Below are positions 19,997-30,829 of a stretch of DNA of 37,221 nucleotides, one piece after another. Both the position numbers and the translations under genes were made by a program. Origin of the DNA: Candidatus Uhrbacteria bacterium (lineage in GTDB: Bacteria > Patescibacteriota > Patescibacteriia > JACQRZ01); the NCBI GenBank assembly GCA_016186045.1, contig JACPMJ010000001.1, positions 1-37,221 of the forward strand. Direction: 5' to 3'. Positions within the stretch are counted from its first letter, which is position 1; each line of letters begins with the position of its first letter. The notes beneath the pieces are model-generated. The model saw only the letters and a program-made list of their open reading frames with translations. It made no database searches and was not told the origin of the DNA.

Positions 19997-20043
19997 AACA
20001 TTCATTAAGAAAAACCTATTTTGAGTCTGCAGAGAAACGTTTT

Positions 20044-20275
20044 TTGTCATCCCGAGCGTACGTGTCATCCCGAGTACCCTCGAGGGACGAGGTACGTGTC
20101 ATCCCGAGCGAAGTCGAGGGATCTGCATTCGTGCGATGTATATCTACGCAGATTCCTCCACTCCATCCGCCAGCCGGCGGAGTCGGTCGGAACGACACAA
20201 AGGACGATTTTACTAAGTTTCTCTACAGTCTCATTTTAGAATTGGATTCCAGTCCGCCGGCTGGCGGATGATCGG
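20044..20275. repeat. REP-like 'tgtcatcccgag' cluster
   Basis: tgtcatcccgag at about 20045, 20063 and 20097, with later gtcggaacgacac and ccgccggctggcgg elements. Confidence 0.7.
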
Positions 20276-20356
20276 GGATCCATTTTTTTATGATTTGTAT
20301 TCATCCATTGAAAAAAAATGAAGGTGATGTATGATAGGAGGGTTCATCCCTACTTT

Positions 20357-20527
20357 GGGCAGTTAGCTCAGCTGGTTAGAGCGTTCGGTTTATTCACCTG
20401 CCTAAATCTGCGCGCGTAGCTCAGTTGGTTAGAGCATACGGTTTACATCCGTAGGGTCAGAGGTTCGAATCCTCTCGCGCGCAAATTTAGGCAGGCAAGT
20501 CCGAAAGGTATCCTGTACTGCCCACCA
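20357..20527 (+). tRNA. Interrupted tRNA-like gene containing a second tRNA
   Basis: 5' part gggcagttagctcagctggttagagcgttcgg; 3' part ccgaaaggtatcctgtactgcccacca. 7-bp acceptor stem GGGCAGT/ACTGCCC, encoded ACCA, D-arm, and 5-bp TTCGG/CCGAA anticodon stem. No normal T-arm. Confidence 0.45.
20410..20483 (+). tRNA. tRNA-Val (anticodon TAC), nested
   Basis: gcgcgcgtagctcagttggttagagcatacggtttacatccgtagggtcagaggttcgaatcctctcgcgcgca; complete cloverleaf. Confidence 0.93.
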
Positions 20528-20528
20528 C

Positions 20529-20601
20529 GGGCCGTTAGCTCATTTGGTAGAGTGCTTGCATGGCATGCAAGAGGCGACCGGTTCGAATCCGGTACGGTCC
20601 A
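20529..20601 (+). tRNA. tRNA-Ala (anticodon GGC)
   Basis: gggccgttagctcatttggtagagtgcttgcatggcatgcaagaggcgaccggttcgaatccggtacggtcca. Confidence 0.93.
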
Positions 20602-25924: not shown

Positions 25925-28900
25925 ATGAAAGAAAAAAAACAGAGCAAAATGCCGCTTGACCTGGTGGGACATGTCATTCCGCGAAATATCACGGAAGAGA
26001 TGCAAGATTCGTATCTTGACTATGCGATGTCCGTCATTATTTCCCGCGCATTACCCGATGTGCGCGACGGGCTTAAGCCGGTTCAACGCAGAATTCTCTA
26101 CGCGATGGGAGATATCGGCCTGCGCGCGAACGCAAAATTCAGAAAATCCGCGACAGTGGTCGGTGAGGTACTTGGGAAATACCATCCGCATGGAGACGCG
26201 TCGGTGTATGACACGATGGTTCGTATGGCGCAGGATTTTTCCATGCGCTATCAGCTGGTACACGGCCAAGGAAATTTTGGGTGTTTTACGAAAGATACTC
26301 TCGTACAATTGACCGATGGACGCACTCTTTCTTTTGAAGAACTTGTGAAAGAACATATAGCAGGAAAAAGAAATTATACCTATACTGTCAATCGGGCAGG
26401 ACTTATCGCTATTGCTGAAATAGAGCATCCACGTAAAACAAAGCAACATGTGGAACTTGTCCGTGTTTCGCTTGATAATGGAGAATCAGTCAGATGTACT
26501 CCAGATCATCTGTTTATGATGCGAAATGGAAGCTATAAAAAAGCCTGTGAACTCCAACAAGGAGAGTCGCTGATGCCTCTTTATCAAAAATTTTCAACAC
26601 AAGAAGATCGTCTCAATAGAGCGGGATATGCATTGGTCTATGAACAAAAAACAAGGACGTGGGTACCTGCTCATCATTTGGCTGATAATTATAATTTAAC
26701 TAAAGGAATCTATAAAAAAACCGCTGGACGCGTCCGACATCATATTGATTTTAATAAACTGAATAATAACCCCTCTAACATTCAGAGGGTCAGCTGGGAA
26801 GAACATTTTACGATTCATGCTCAACACGCGTCAGAACAGCATACACACAAAGAGTATCGTGAAAAAATTACAGAAGGTAGGATAAAATTTTGGTCACAAA
26901 CAGAGAATCGAAAAGAATATGCCTCTCGAATGTCAAAACGAAATAAAAAGAACTGGCAAGATCCTGTATACAGGGAAAAAATGAAAGTATTTTTGAGTAA
27001 AGTAAACAAAGAATATCTCAAAACACATCCGGAGAAACTTAAAGAAATAGCTCATAGAGCTTCTCGAACAATGAAGAAACTCTGGGAAAATCCTGTGTAT
27101 AGAAAAATTTTTCATGAAAAAATAGGTGCATCAAATAAACGACGGCTGACAAATAACACCGGAAAAATAAAATTTTTACACGTATGTCAAGAAATAATAA
27201 AAAAACAACATTCTCTCAATAAAGAAACGTATGATCAAGATAGGAATATTGTATACCCATATGGAGGGTCGCCAATGTGGGATACCGCTTTTGAAAAATA
27301 TTACGAAAACAATATAGCGCTTCTTCATAATGAGATTCACTACAACCATAAGGTCGTACGCGTCGAATGGCTTCATAAAAAAGAAGATGTGTATGATCTT
27401 ACGATCGCCGGCAGTCATAACTTCGCGCTTGCCTGCGGAGTGTTTGTTCATAATTCAATGGACGGGGACTCGGCGGCGGCTATGCGGTATTGTGTCACTG
27501 CTGATACACGCATCATCACCGAACGCGGCTTAGAATCAATCAGTACGCTCTCAAAAAATGAAGATACAGATATTAAAGTTCTTTCAAAGGATGGCGCCAT
27601 TCATCAGGCATCAAAATGGTTTGACTCGGGAATCCATCCAACAATAAAAATAACGACACATAAAGGATACACTCTGCAAGGTTCGTACAATCATCCTATT
27701 CTTACGTGGAACAACCAAGAAAAAGGATCGCCAAAATTTATATGGAAAACACTTCAAGAATTAACTCAGGAAGATGTCGCGGTCTTGGATAGATCAACAC
27801 ATTTTTGGCCTCAAGCCGAACTCAACATCAAAAAACAGTATCCGAAATTAAAAAATAAAAAAACAGAACAAAAGATCCTTCCAAAAACATGCACGGCAGA
27901 TCTCGCTTTTCTCCTTGGATGCATTTGTTCTGAGGGAACTCTCGGAAAGTATCGCCAGAAAAAAATTGAATTTTGTAATACCGACCAAGAATTCATTCGG
28001 GTCTTTGAGGAAAAATGGATGCGAACATTTCCTGATACTCGTCTTCATCGTTTCGAACGTAAGCCATCATCCTACGGCAGACAAAACTATACTCGCCTTG
28101 AAGTACATTCACAGTATGTTATTTCTTTTTTGGAAAATCTCGGTCTTCAGTTTGCAAAATCAGGAGATCGCCGCGTTCCAGAAGTGATTTTTTTATCTCC
28201 CAAGGATGTCGTCTCCGCTTTCTTGCAAGCATACGCGGAAGGAGATGGCTCTGTGAGTTCGAGCGGGAAAATGAACGAATTAAGTTACATTTCGAAAAGT
28301 GAGAAGATGCTTTCGGATATCCAAATACTTCTTCTCCGATATGGAATAGACACGTTCAAGCGATATGATCGTCATAGATCAATCTCTAAACTCTACCTGA
28401 GAGGATACGACAATTATATTCGTTTTCGTGAACATATCTATTTTTTTTCAATCCGAAAAAAACGTGCTTTAGATTCTATCATTGATAGTATTTCACGTCC
28501 ATCATCACTAAAAGATTTTATTCCCTATCTTAGCGAAAGTATTCGAAATGTCGCGACTCATACAACAGTCCTCCCAGAATCACAGACCCGCTATACAGTT
28601 CTTATTGAGAATTTATTGAAAAACAGATATCTTTTTGACTCTATCGCCTGTATAGAGCACATGAGTGAAGAACGAGTATACTCACTTAAAGTTGAGAGTG
28701 AGTGTCATTCTTTTGTCGGAAATGGCTTTATCAATCACAATACTGAGGCAAAACTTCGAAAGATTACAGAAGAGATGCTGGGGGATATAGAAAAAAACAC
28801 CGTCAATTTTACCCCGAATTATGATGGAACGCATAAAGAGCCTACGGTCCTTCCCGCACGTATTCCAAATCTTCTCTTAAACGGAACCGTGGGTATCGCG

Positions 28901-30829
28901 GTAGGTATGGCGACCACTATTCCGCCGCATAATTTGACAGAGGTGTGCGACGCGCTCATGCATGTGTTGGAGTGTCCGGATTGTTCCATTGAAGATCTTA
29001 TGGGCTTCATCAAGGGGCCGGACTTTCCTACCGGAGGCATTATCTATGATGTCAAAGCCATCAAACAGGCATACATCACCGGTCGCGGAGGCGTCGTCAT
29101 ACGCGCGCGCACGGATATTAGTGAGAGTAAGTCAGGCACATATCAGATCATCGTAACGGAGGTTCCCTATCAAGTAAACAAAGCGACCGTACTCGAAAAA
29201 ATCGCAGATCTTGTGCGCGAGAAAAAAATCGAAGGCATTCGAGATCTGCGCGATGAGTCAAACAAAGAGGGCGTGCGCATGGTTATAGAGCTGAAAAAAG
29301 ACGCCTATCCGAAAAAAGTATTGAATCAACTTTTCAAATTCACCCAACTGCAAGATACGTTTCACTTTAATGTAGTAGCACTGGTGGATGGTATTCAGCC
29401 GCGTACCTTAAGTCTGAAATCCGTCCTTGAAGAATTCCTCAAATTCAGAAAAGAAGTGGTCACGCGGCGCACGCAATATGATCTTGATAAGACAAAGGAT
29501 CGCGTCCATATCTTACTGGGACTGAAAATCGCAATTGACAATATCGACGCGGTCATCAAGACCATTAAGCAGTCCGCGGATAAAGATGAGGCGAAAACAA
29601 ATCTCATGAAAAAGTTTAAGTTGAGCGAACGACAGGCGCTCGCCATTTTGGAGATGAAACTCTCGCAACTCGCAAATCTGGAACGCATGAAGATAGAACA
29701 AGAGCTCAAAGAAAAACGTGTACTCATCGCGGAACTGGAGGCGATCTTGGCATCGCCTAAAAAACTGAAGGCGGTTATCAAAAAAGAAATAGAAGAAATA
29801 CGCGAGACCTATACGGATGAACGGCGCACGCAGATTATCAAAGGAGCGGTAGGCGAAATCAGCCAGGAAGATCTGATCCCAAATGAATCAACGGTTGTCA
29901 TGATTACTGGAGATGGCTATATCAAGCGCCTTCCGCCGGATACTTTCAAGCTTCAGGCGCGTGGCGGCAAGGGAGTTATCGGCCTTACGACAAAAGAAGA
30001 GGATACGGTGGAGAAATTATTCAGCTGTATGACGCATAATGACCTTCTCTTTTTCACGACGCGCGGAAGAGTATTCCAGCTCAAAGCATATGATGTACCC
30101 GTCGCCTCCCGCACCTCAAAAGGACAGGCGATCGTGAACTTCCTCCAGCTTGGAAATGGGGAAAAAGTATCCGCGATTCTTTCTTTGGCGGAACTTGCGG
30201 AACAAAAATATCTCACCATGGTCACACGATACGGACTCATAAAAAAGACCGAGCTTTCTGACTTCGCAAATGTCAGAAAATCCGGCCTTATCGCCATAAA
30301 ACTCAAAGATGATGATATTTTGGAGTGGGTGAAGCCGACGACCGGAAAAAATGAGATCTCTCTCGTCACGGCAAACGGTCAGTCTATCCGATTCAAAGAA
30401 GAACAGGTGCGCGCCATGGGCAGGACGGCGGCAGGCGTACACGGCGCGCGCGTGAAAAAAGGTGATATTCTTGTAAGTATGGATGTCATAGCGCCGCTTG
30501 CCAAAGACGCGCATGTCCTTATCGTGACCGAAAATGGTTTTGGTAAACTTTCCACTCTGAAGGCATATAAAGTGCAAGGCAGAGGCGGATCCGGCATCAA
30601 AACGGCAAAAATCACCGCAAAGACAGGGAAAATCGTGATGGCGGGCGTACTCAATCCAAAAGCGCCAGTGGAAGGCACGAGTGGGGATCTGCTCATCATG
30701 TCCGAAAAGGGACAGGTGATTCGTATTAGCATCAAGAGCGTGCCGATACTCGGACGAGATACCCAAGGAGTCCGTCTCATGCGCTTCAAAGAAACCGGAG
30801 ACAAGATCGCCTCTATTACAGTGGTGTAA
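25925..30829 (+). CDS. gyrA: DNA gyrase subunit A containing two inteins
   Basis: Exteins ALPDVRDGLKPVQRRILYAM..HPHGDASVYDTMVRMAQDFSMRY..GQGNFG / SMDGDSAAAMRY / TEAKLRKITEEML..NYDGT, plus C-terminal GyrA beta-propeller repeats. Confidence 0.96.
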   Translation: MKEKKQSKMPLDLVGHVIPRNITEEMQDSYLDYAMSVIISRALPDVRDGLKPVQRRILYAMGDIGLRANAKFRKSATVVGEVLGKYHPHGDASVYDTMVRMAQDFSMRYQLVHGQGNFGCFTKDTLVQLTDGRTLSFEELVKEHIAGKRNYTYTVNRAGLIAIAEIEHPRKTKQHVELVRVSLDNGESVRCTPDHLFMMRNGSYKKACELQQGESLMPLYQKFSTQEDRLNRAGYALVYEQKTRTWVPAHHLADNYNLTKGIYKKTAGRVRHHIDFNKLNNNPSNIQRVSWEEHFTIHAQHASEQHTHKEYREKITEGRIKFWSQTENRKEYASRMSKRNKKNWQDPVYREKMKVFLSKVNKEYLKTHPEKLKEIAHRASRTMKKLWENPVYRKIFHEKIGASNKRRLTNNTGKIKFLHVCQEIIKKQHSLNKETYDQDRNIVYPYGGSPMWDTAFEKYYENNIALLHNEIHYNHKVVRVEWLHKKEDVYDLTIAGSHNFALACGVFVHNSMDGDSAAAMRYCVTADTRIITERGLESISTLSKNEDTDIKVLSKDGAIHQASKWFDSGIHPTIKITTHKGYTLQGSYNHPILTWNNQEKGSPKFIWKTLQELTQEDVAVLDRSTHFWPQAELNIKKQYPKLKNKKTEQKILPKTCTADLAFLLGCICSEGTLGKYRQKKIEFCNTDQEFIRVFEEKWMRTFPDTRLHRFERKPSSYGRQNYTRLEVHSQYVISFLENLGLQFAKSGDRRVPEVIFLSPKDVVSAFLQAYAEGDGSVSSSGKMNELSYISKSEKMLSDIQILLLRYGIDTFKRYDRHRSISKLYLRGYDNYIRFREHIYFFSIRKKRALDSIIDSISRPSSLKDFIPYLSESIRNVATHTTVLPESQTRYTVLIENLLKNRYLFDSIACIEHMSEERVYSLKVESECHSFVGNGFINHNTEAKLRKITEEMLGDIEKNTVNFTPNYDGTHKEPTVLPARIPNLLLNGTVGIAVGMATTIPPHNLTEVCDALMHVLECPDCSIEDLMGFIKGPDFPTGGIIYDVKAIKQAYITGRGGVVIRARTDISESKSGTYQIIVTEVPYQVNKATVLEKIADLVREKKIEGIRDLRDESNKEGVRMVIELKKDAYPKKVLNQLFKFTQLQDTFHFNVVALVDGIQPRTLSLKSVLEEFLKFRKEVVTRRTQYDLDKTKDRVHILLGLKIAIDNIDAVIKTIKQSADKDEAKTNLMKKFKLSERQALAILEMKLSQLANLERMKIEQELKEKRVLIAELEAILASPKKLKAVIKKEIEEIRETYTDERRTQIIKGAVGEISQEDLIPNESTVVMITGDGYIKRLPPDTFKLQARGGKGVIGLTTKEEDTVEKLFSCMTHNDLLFFTTRGRVFQLKAYDVPVASRTSKGQAIVNFLQLGNGEKVSAILSLAELAEQKYLTMVTRYGLIKKTELSDFANVRKSGLIAIKLKDDDILEWVKPTTGKNEISLVTANGQSIRFKEEQVRAMGRTAAGVHGARVKKGDILVSMDVIAPLAKDAHVLIVTENGFGKLSTLKAYKVQGRGGSGIKTAKITAKTGKIVMAGVLNPKAPVEGTSGDLLIMSEKGQVIRISIKSVPILGRDTQGVRLMRFKETGDKIASITVV
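26282..27454 (+). other. Intein 1 in GyrA (391 aa) with HNH/NUMOD3-like endonuclease region
   Basis: Starts C(FTKDTLVQLTDGRTLSFEEL), block B CTPDHLFM, ends VYDLTIAGSHNFALACGVFVHN|S. Endonuclease-like VRHHIDFNKLNNNPSNIQRVSWEEHFTIH and repeats WQDPVYREK / WENPVYRKI. Confidence 0.93.
27491..28741 (+). other. Intein 2 in GyrA (417 aa) with LAGLIDADG endonuclease
   Basis: Starts C(VTADTRIITERGLESI), block B GSYNHPIL, ends VYSLKVESECHSFVGNGFINHN|T. LAGLIDADG motifs LLGCICSEGT and FLQAYAEGDG. Confidence 0.95.

Follow-up and report, generated by a model that had tools for sequence, protein, structure and literature searches.

A tRNA gene inside a broken tRNA gene: a family of hairpin-bounded tRNA units in Patescibacteria

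Why should a complete tRNA-Val(TAC) gene lie inside another tRNA-like sequence? The question is raised by positions 20357–20527 of the window, the 37,221-nt stretch of DNA analysed here, which belongs to an Uhrbacteria genome of 0.93 Mb (G000; 32 contigs, 91.6% complete) whose class-mates include records titled Uhr-, Kerfeld-, Kuenen- and Buchananbacteria (Patescibacteria). An earlier note on this DNA had described the inner gene, the 11-bp arms beside it and an outer sequence with a 7-bp acceptor stem, an encoded ACCA, a D-arm and a TTCGG/CCGAA anticodon stem. It offered four readings: a tRNA disrupted by a tRNA-bearing insertion, a decayed tRNA, an intron-like arrangement or a new structured RNA. 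Re-reading of the sequence confirmed every letter and coordinate of that description, and the first two readings, combined, are the ones that held. Beyond the note, we find that outer and inner genes belong to one isoacceptor, that the insert has constant feet and that it belongs to a widespread family.

The outer gene and the unit inserted into it

The inserted unit is larger than the 11-bp repeat by which it was noticed, since the feet TTCA and CAAG of the plus strand also belong to it (Table 1). Read on the minus strand, it has the form CTTG-CCTGCCTAAAT-tRNA-ATTTAGGCAGG-TGAA. A single unpaired base separates the tRNA from either arm, and insertion of the unit swaps out the CA of the host anticodon loop. 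The whole 171-nt locus folds far better than shuffled sequences (−72.3 versus −48.8 kcal/mol, z = −6.5, with 0 of 200 shuffles as good). ARAGORN and Rfam, which call both the inner tRNA-Val(TAC) and the adjacent tRNA-Ala(GGC), call no tRNA in the outer gene. The promoter-like site upstream of the outer gene would now drive the inner tRNA. The spacer further upstream (20040–20280) is rich in TCATCCCGAGCGAAGTCGAGGGAT-type repeats and GCCGGCTGGCGG palindromes, and a 1634-aa ORF occupies 25925–30829.

Table 1. Features of the tRNA-in-tRNA locus in the window
Feature	Position	Strand	Evidence or remark
Promoter-like site TTGAAA-16-TATGAT, 5' of outer gene	20308..20335	+	Consensus scan, 10/12 matches; consensus match only
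5' part of disrupted native tRNA-Val(TAC), with acceptor, D-arm and the first half of the anticodon arm; ends in TTTA	20357..20392	+	Identical to native Val(TAC) of G010 (L012:1494-1567)
Inserted element CTTG-arm-tRNA-arm-TGAA	20393..20499	-	Feet and hairpin scan; 63-member family
Constant foot TGAA (TTCA on +)	20393..20396	-	Family consensus
Left hairpin arm CCTGCCTAAAT	20397..20407	+	Pairs with 20485-20495 in predicted fold
Inner intact tRNA-Val(TAC), the cargo	20409..20484	+	ARAGORN; Rfam RF00005, 73.6 bits
Right hairpin arm ATTTAGGCAGG	20485..20495	+	Pairs with left arm in predicted fold
Constant foot CTTG (CAAG on +)	20496..20499	-	Family consensus
3' part of disrupted native tRNA-Val(TAC) with ACCA	20500..20527	+	Alignment with native genes
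tRNA-Ala(GGC), conserved 3' neighbour marking the ancestral Val slot	20529..20601	+	ARAGORN, Rfam

When the two outer parts are rejoined with CA between them, they match the native Val(TAC) of the related genome G010 except for a single 11-nt deletion in the T-arm (CACAGGTTCGA, lost between 20509 and 20510 in the alignment with native genes). The outer gene had been noted to lack a standard T-arm; this stands, and the loss can now be described more exactly as a deletion from an otherwise identical native gene. Because of this match, the outer gene is, judged by its sequence, a dead native tRNA-Val(TAC) and no new RNA. In G010 and G002 the native Val(TAC) is also followed by Ala(GGC), as in the window, so the outer gene marks the ancestral slot. 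A second copy of a Val 3' end (CGAATCCTGTACTGCCCATGAG, L012:1715-1732) lies ~150 bp downstream of the native gene in G010.

With its acceptor GCGCGCG, the inner gene belongs to another type, and its closest relative is the Val(TAC) of G001. The best explanation at the sequence level is that an invading Val(TAC) related to that of G001 took the place of the native gene in the Val–Ala slot of the window. The G001 gene itself occupies a comparable slot after Leu(GAG), and the sequences on either side of it may be what is left of one more decayed outer gene, an arrangement that is suggestive only. The window's own genome has another intact Val(TAC) on contig C7 and so does not strictly depend on the inner copy.

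A family of tRNA-bearing hairpins

The earlier note had proposed looking for the arrangement in related genomes. Several surveys together recovered at least 63 distinct elements with feet of the form CTTG-CC...GG-TGAA, a hairpin and a tRNA cargo, almost all in Patescibacteria, and the observation is thereby confirmed as real and general. The survey patterns consisted only of the feet and the D-arm motif TAGCTCAG. Two feet-plus-tRNA patterns matched 8 and 10 of 381 class genomes (17 of the 18 entries were verified and one was a chance match), while a reversed control pattern had 0 matches in the same 381 genomes. A survey of 84,980 species genomes returned 66 stretches, 52 of which contain an element of our working table by exact sequence match, or 51 after removal of L145 (Nocardioides), which was left out as a tRNA-Thr call with neither a hairpin nor tRNA-like flanks. 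The other 14 stretches (from Vibrio, Butyrivibrio, Acetobacter and similar genomes) contain neither tRNA nor hairpin.

All carriers seen are metagenome assemblies, and some record titles are probably mislabels: L143 (DYHP01000004.1), titled Candidatus Methylomirabilis, carries the same element as L077 of G026 and is placed by GTDB in the window's class. The verified elements in L113, L134 and L168 (titled Spirochaetia, Cloacimonadota and Neomarinimicrobiota) may have similarly mislabelled sources. The architecture and the family themselves are hardly in doubt.

The elements measure 100–170 bp (median 116, n = 63). Their cargo comprises Val(TAC) (24), Val(CAC) (15), Val(GAC) (6), Met (12), Ile (3), Ala (2) and Thr (1), a spectrum that, like foot conservation and frequency, is biased by the search design: because the feet and TAGCTCAG were fixed, the conservation of positions 1–7 and the excess of Val and Met are partly ascertainment. 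Stem positions 8–16 were unconstrained by the searches, and they are paired in 51–62 of the 63 elements versus 25–42 in shuffles (z 5.6–9.3). The arms are inverted repeats that differ in sequence between members and covary strongly, with many compensatory types, indicating that the hairpin is conserved and its sequence is not.

The flanks of the units are tRNA halves, and almost all units sit in a D-loop or an anticodon loop with one TG/CA replaced. Where the cargo runs with the feet, the site is a D-loop wherever the flanks can be read (AGY-unit-GTTAGAGC); where it runs against them, the site is in the anticodon arm (TTTA-unit-CCGAG on the sense strand). A few flanks are too decayed for reading, and in the Ile cases and at C8 a few more bases than TG were lost (TTAG at C8). 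Putting TG back at the junction restored the outer tRNA in 34 of the 63 elements; 31 of these have the anticodon of the cargo, the remaining three being decayed or ambiguous, and outer and inner genes are co-oriented in all 34 readable cases. As the anticodon is partly read from the restored TG, the rejoin test was checked against other dinucleotides: outer tRNAs with the same anticodon numbered 31 with TG, 21 with the next best dinucleotide and 3 with none. Flanks exchanged between elements gave just 5–12 detections. ARAGORN detected the inner tRNA in every match with clear arms, whereas the outer gene was detectable in only 34 of 63.

Insertion can be repeated at one locus. The only Val(GAC) detected in the window's genome (C8:6180-6460; L002:1420-1710) is surrounded by Val(GAC) fragments in two older layers; the feet are the same and the site is a D-loop. 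In L180, Val(TAC) forms three layers in succession, and TTTA/CA was the point of entry each time. In G208 (100% complete, 852 kb), the sole Val(TAC) and the sole Val(CAC) found are both cargo, and therefore the cargo tRNAs must work; the two units have related arms and lie in different tRNA genes, and no further copy of the hairpin was found in the 852 kb. The only empty member seen is a 43-bp intergenic hairpin of the window's genome (C15:16992-17034; L104), whose feet are the same and whose 16-bp stem encloses no tRNA. The dead outer halves in L064, L067, L069, L070, L073 and L111 bear further, different hairpin-like insertions, such as GTTA/CCTGCC...GGCAGG/GAGC, perhaps a second palindromic family.

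Origin of the nested genes

We favour the reading (probability of roughly 0.78) that the unit is a minimal mobile tRNA cassette, which enters tRNA genes, destroys them and persists where it takes over from the gene that was lost. The presence of at least 63 such elements across related genomes marks them as a recurring kind of mobile element, apparently one not described before, and speaks against an oddity or an intron. Open-access papers, searched for tRNA genes nested in bacterial tRNA genes or for comparable elements, gave no account of such a unit, which is weak negative evidence.

The sequences of the paired genes bear on how they came together. The median identity of an inner gene to its own outer gene is 0.75 and to unrelated outer genes of the same anticodon 0.74, and most readable outer genes retain 6–7 of 7 acceptor pairs with different bases from the inner gene, which argues that two independent tRNAs met. 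If the inner gene were instead an in-place copy of the outer one, made by aberrant replication or repair with nothing moving between loci or genomes, the cognate match and the co-orientation would come for free, and near-identical pairs do occur (L109, identity 0.97; L075, 0.93; C8), so that copying or conversion takes place as well. Inner and outer genes are nevertheless mostly no closer than unrelated isoacceptors, the inner gene of the window resembles that of G001 and not its own outer gene, and constant feet on variable, covarying stems require a specific recogniser. We therefore rejected local duplication as a general origin and consider it unlikely as the main route. Cognate targeting, co-orientation and the identical junctions within Val(TAC) would likewise follow if one or a few ancient insertions had spread by homologous recombination between tRNA genes, the outer halves acting as homology arms with no present transposition. 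The same feet and the same two-base replacement recur, however, in D-loops and, on the opposite strand, in anticodon loops, and the genes concerned are those for Val, Met, Ile, Ala and Thr, so that several independent insertions are needed. Together with the two related-arm units in different tRNA genes of G208, this makes recombinational spread improbable.

An intron that carries the inner tRNA and is spliced to restore the outer one would suit the many insertions in the anticodon loop, where tRNA introns usually lie, as well as the many outer genes that retain their stems. Yet precise excision leaves the loop two bases short and cannot restore it, because the CA of the host is lost. The window's outer gene also lacks part of its T-arm, other outer genes miss whole halves, and a splicing scheme gives no reason for cognate cargo. 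In Rfam, the outer unit matched no known RNA family, only tRNA at the gathering threshold, and relaxing the cut-off to an E of 10 brought up no intron family. The intron reading is thus very improbable, and neither it nor the new structured RNA suggested earlier fits outer genes that have lost host bases and decay freely around inner genes that stay intact. An assembly or binning artefact could be suspected, since every carrier examined comes from a metagenome assembly and loci with nested repeats, C8 among them, are difficult to assemble; with the same architecture, feet and two-base replacement in dozens of genomes from many independent studies, and with differing inner and outer sequences, we give it next to no weight.

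For the mobile cassette, the following course can be proposed. The unit, one functional tRNA gene in the loop of a DNA hairpin with the constant feet CTTG and TGAA, would enter a cell or move within it. A putative enzyme would then insert it in a D-loop or anticodon loop at a TG (CA on the complementary strand), and the unit takes the place of that dinucleotide, as the junctions record. The target gene is broken, as the interrupted tRNA halves attest, and the survivors would be those events that supply the same anticodon from the promoter of the target (20308–20335 in the window). The outer gene subsequently decays and the inner gene becomes the next target, yielding the Russian-doll loci observed at C8 and L180. 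As the cargo shares its anticodon and orientation with the gene it interrupts, it can take over the lost function, presumably from the promoter of the host gene, and the outer gene has probably been replaced by the inner one.

The family would move as a unit. The cognate match probably reflects selection, by which insertions that destroy an essential tRNA and offer no substitute are lost, and not a targeting that is specific for cognate genes. In D-loops the target TG belongs to the sense strand, in anticodon loops to the antisense strand, and the sites otherwise share little sequence. This is a hint that recognition concerns the loops of a folded single strand; such a strand may be the substrate of insertion. 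We lean towards a dedicated recombinase. To a similar degree, we are inclined to see here a selfish element of a new class, namely a bare mobile tRNA gene for which a putative recombinase attacks TG in the loops of folded tRNA genes, and which breaks essential tRNA genes and persists as their replacement.

Searches for the mover and for other forms of the element gave the following. Y1 transposase genes are absent from the window's genome and occur in 9 of 18 carriers versus 17 of 32 non-carriers; a Y1/RAYT mover was rejected, as these genes are not associated with carriers. When larger, autonomous copies were sought, the Val(TAC) right-junction search yielded only tRNA-bearing elements and one chance match, and the D-loop left-junction search tRNA-bearing elements and one chance match (L107). 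A search for a pool of tRNA-less hairpins stayed at control level (2 matches in 115 genomes versus 2 control matches). Phage carriage gave 0 matches in one orientation and, in the other, 10 matches without a tRNA that look like one conserved viral sequence (3 of the 10 were read). Among the assemblies examined, no excision, circle or fresh transposition was seen, and these searches yielded neither a recombinase nor an autonomous copy.

Significance and comparison with known systems

Mobile elements usually spare essential genes by using safe sites, by self-splicing or by restoring the end of the gene. The present family appears to survive by taking the place of an essential, often single-copy gene that it destroys. 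If so, destroy-and-rescue drives would have a natural counterpart, and the family would also be a mechanism for the horizontal replacement and turnover of core tRNA genes in Patescibacteria, a source of mis-annotated tRNA sets in these bacteria and a lead to a putative recombinase acting on tRNA-shaped DNA.

Among known systems, REP/RAYT and IS200/IS605 elements resemble the family as short non-coding hairpins with conserved foot bases and a stem kept by compensatory change, and the CTTG/TGAA feet and covarying stem have this form. Unlike REP, the tRNA family holds a functional gene in its loop, occupies tRNA-gene sites, has a low copy number and lacks a Y1 link, the window's carrier genome having no Y1 transposase. 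Terminal inverted repeats are shared with MITEs and DNA transposons, though here the arm sequence varies between members, and two target bases are replaced instead of being duplicated at the outer edges as in a flush target-site duplication. Rickettsia palindromic elements and yeast mitochondrial GC clusters are small palindromic mobile sequences within genes that are tolerated in the product of the host gene. The tRNA family is also palindromic and genic, but here insertion breaks the host gene and the cargo takes its place.

Group I introns in bacterial tRNA genes share the anticodon-loop site. The family differs in that Rfam detects no group I or II ribozyme core, host bases are lost and the outer gene decays; exact excision does not restore the host RNA (3 same-anticodon tRNAs without TG versus 31 with it). 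The archaeal bulge-helix-bulge, a 4-bp helix with two 3-nt bulges, is absent from the junctions in the predicted fold of the window unit, the one fold inspected. On inspection of the arms, the integron attC pattern RYYYAAC...GTTRRRY is also absent: only one arm subfamily has GTTAGA...TCTAAC, in reversed order relative to attC, and others (CCCGCCCACC, CCCGCCTAAA) lack it.

Integrative elements that target tRNA genes resemble the family in their choice of target and in offsetting the damage. Such elements code for an integrase and restore the end of the gene they enter, whereas the family's unit (107 bp in the window, filled by the tRNA and its arms) encodes no protein and brings a whole new tRNA, and its target is left broken and dies. 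A similar logic is that of engineered Cleave-and-Rescue gene drives, which are reported to destroy an essential gene and carry its replacement (PMC7951863). Compared with these drives, the tRNA family appears to follow the same logic in a natural element of ~0.1 kb that encodes no nuclease, the insertion itself doing the destroying.
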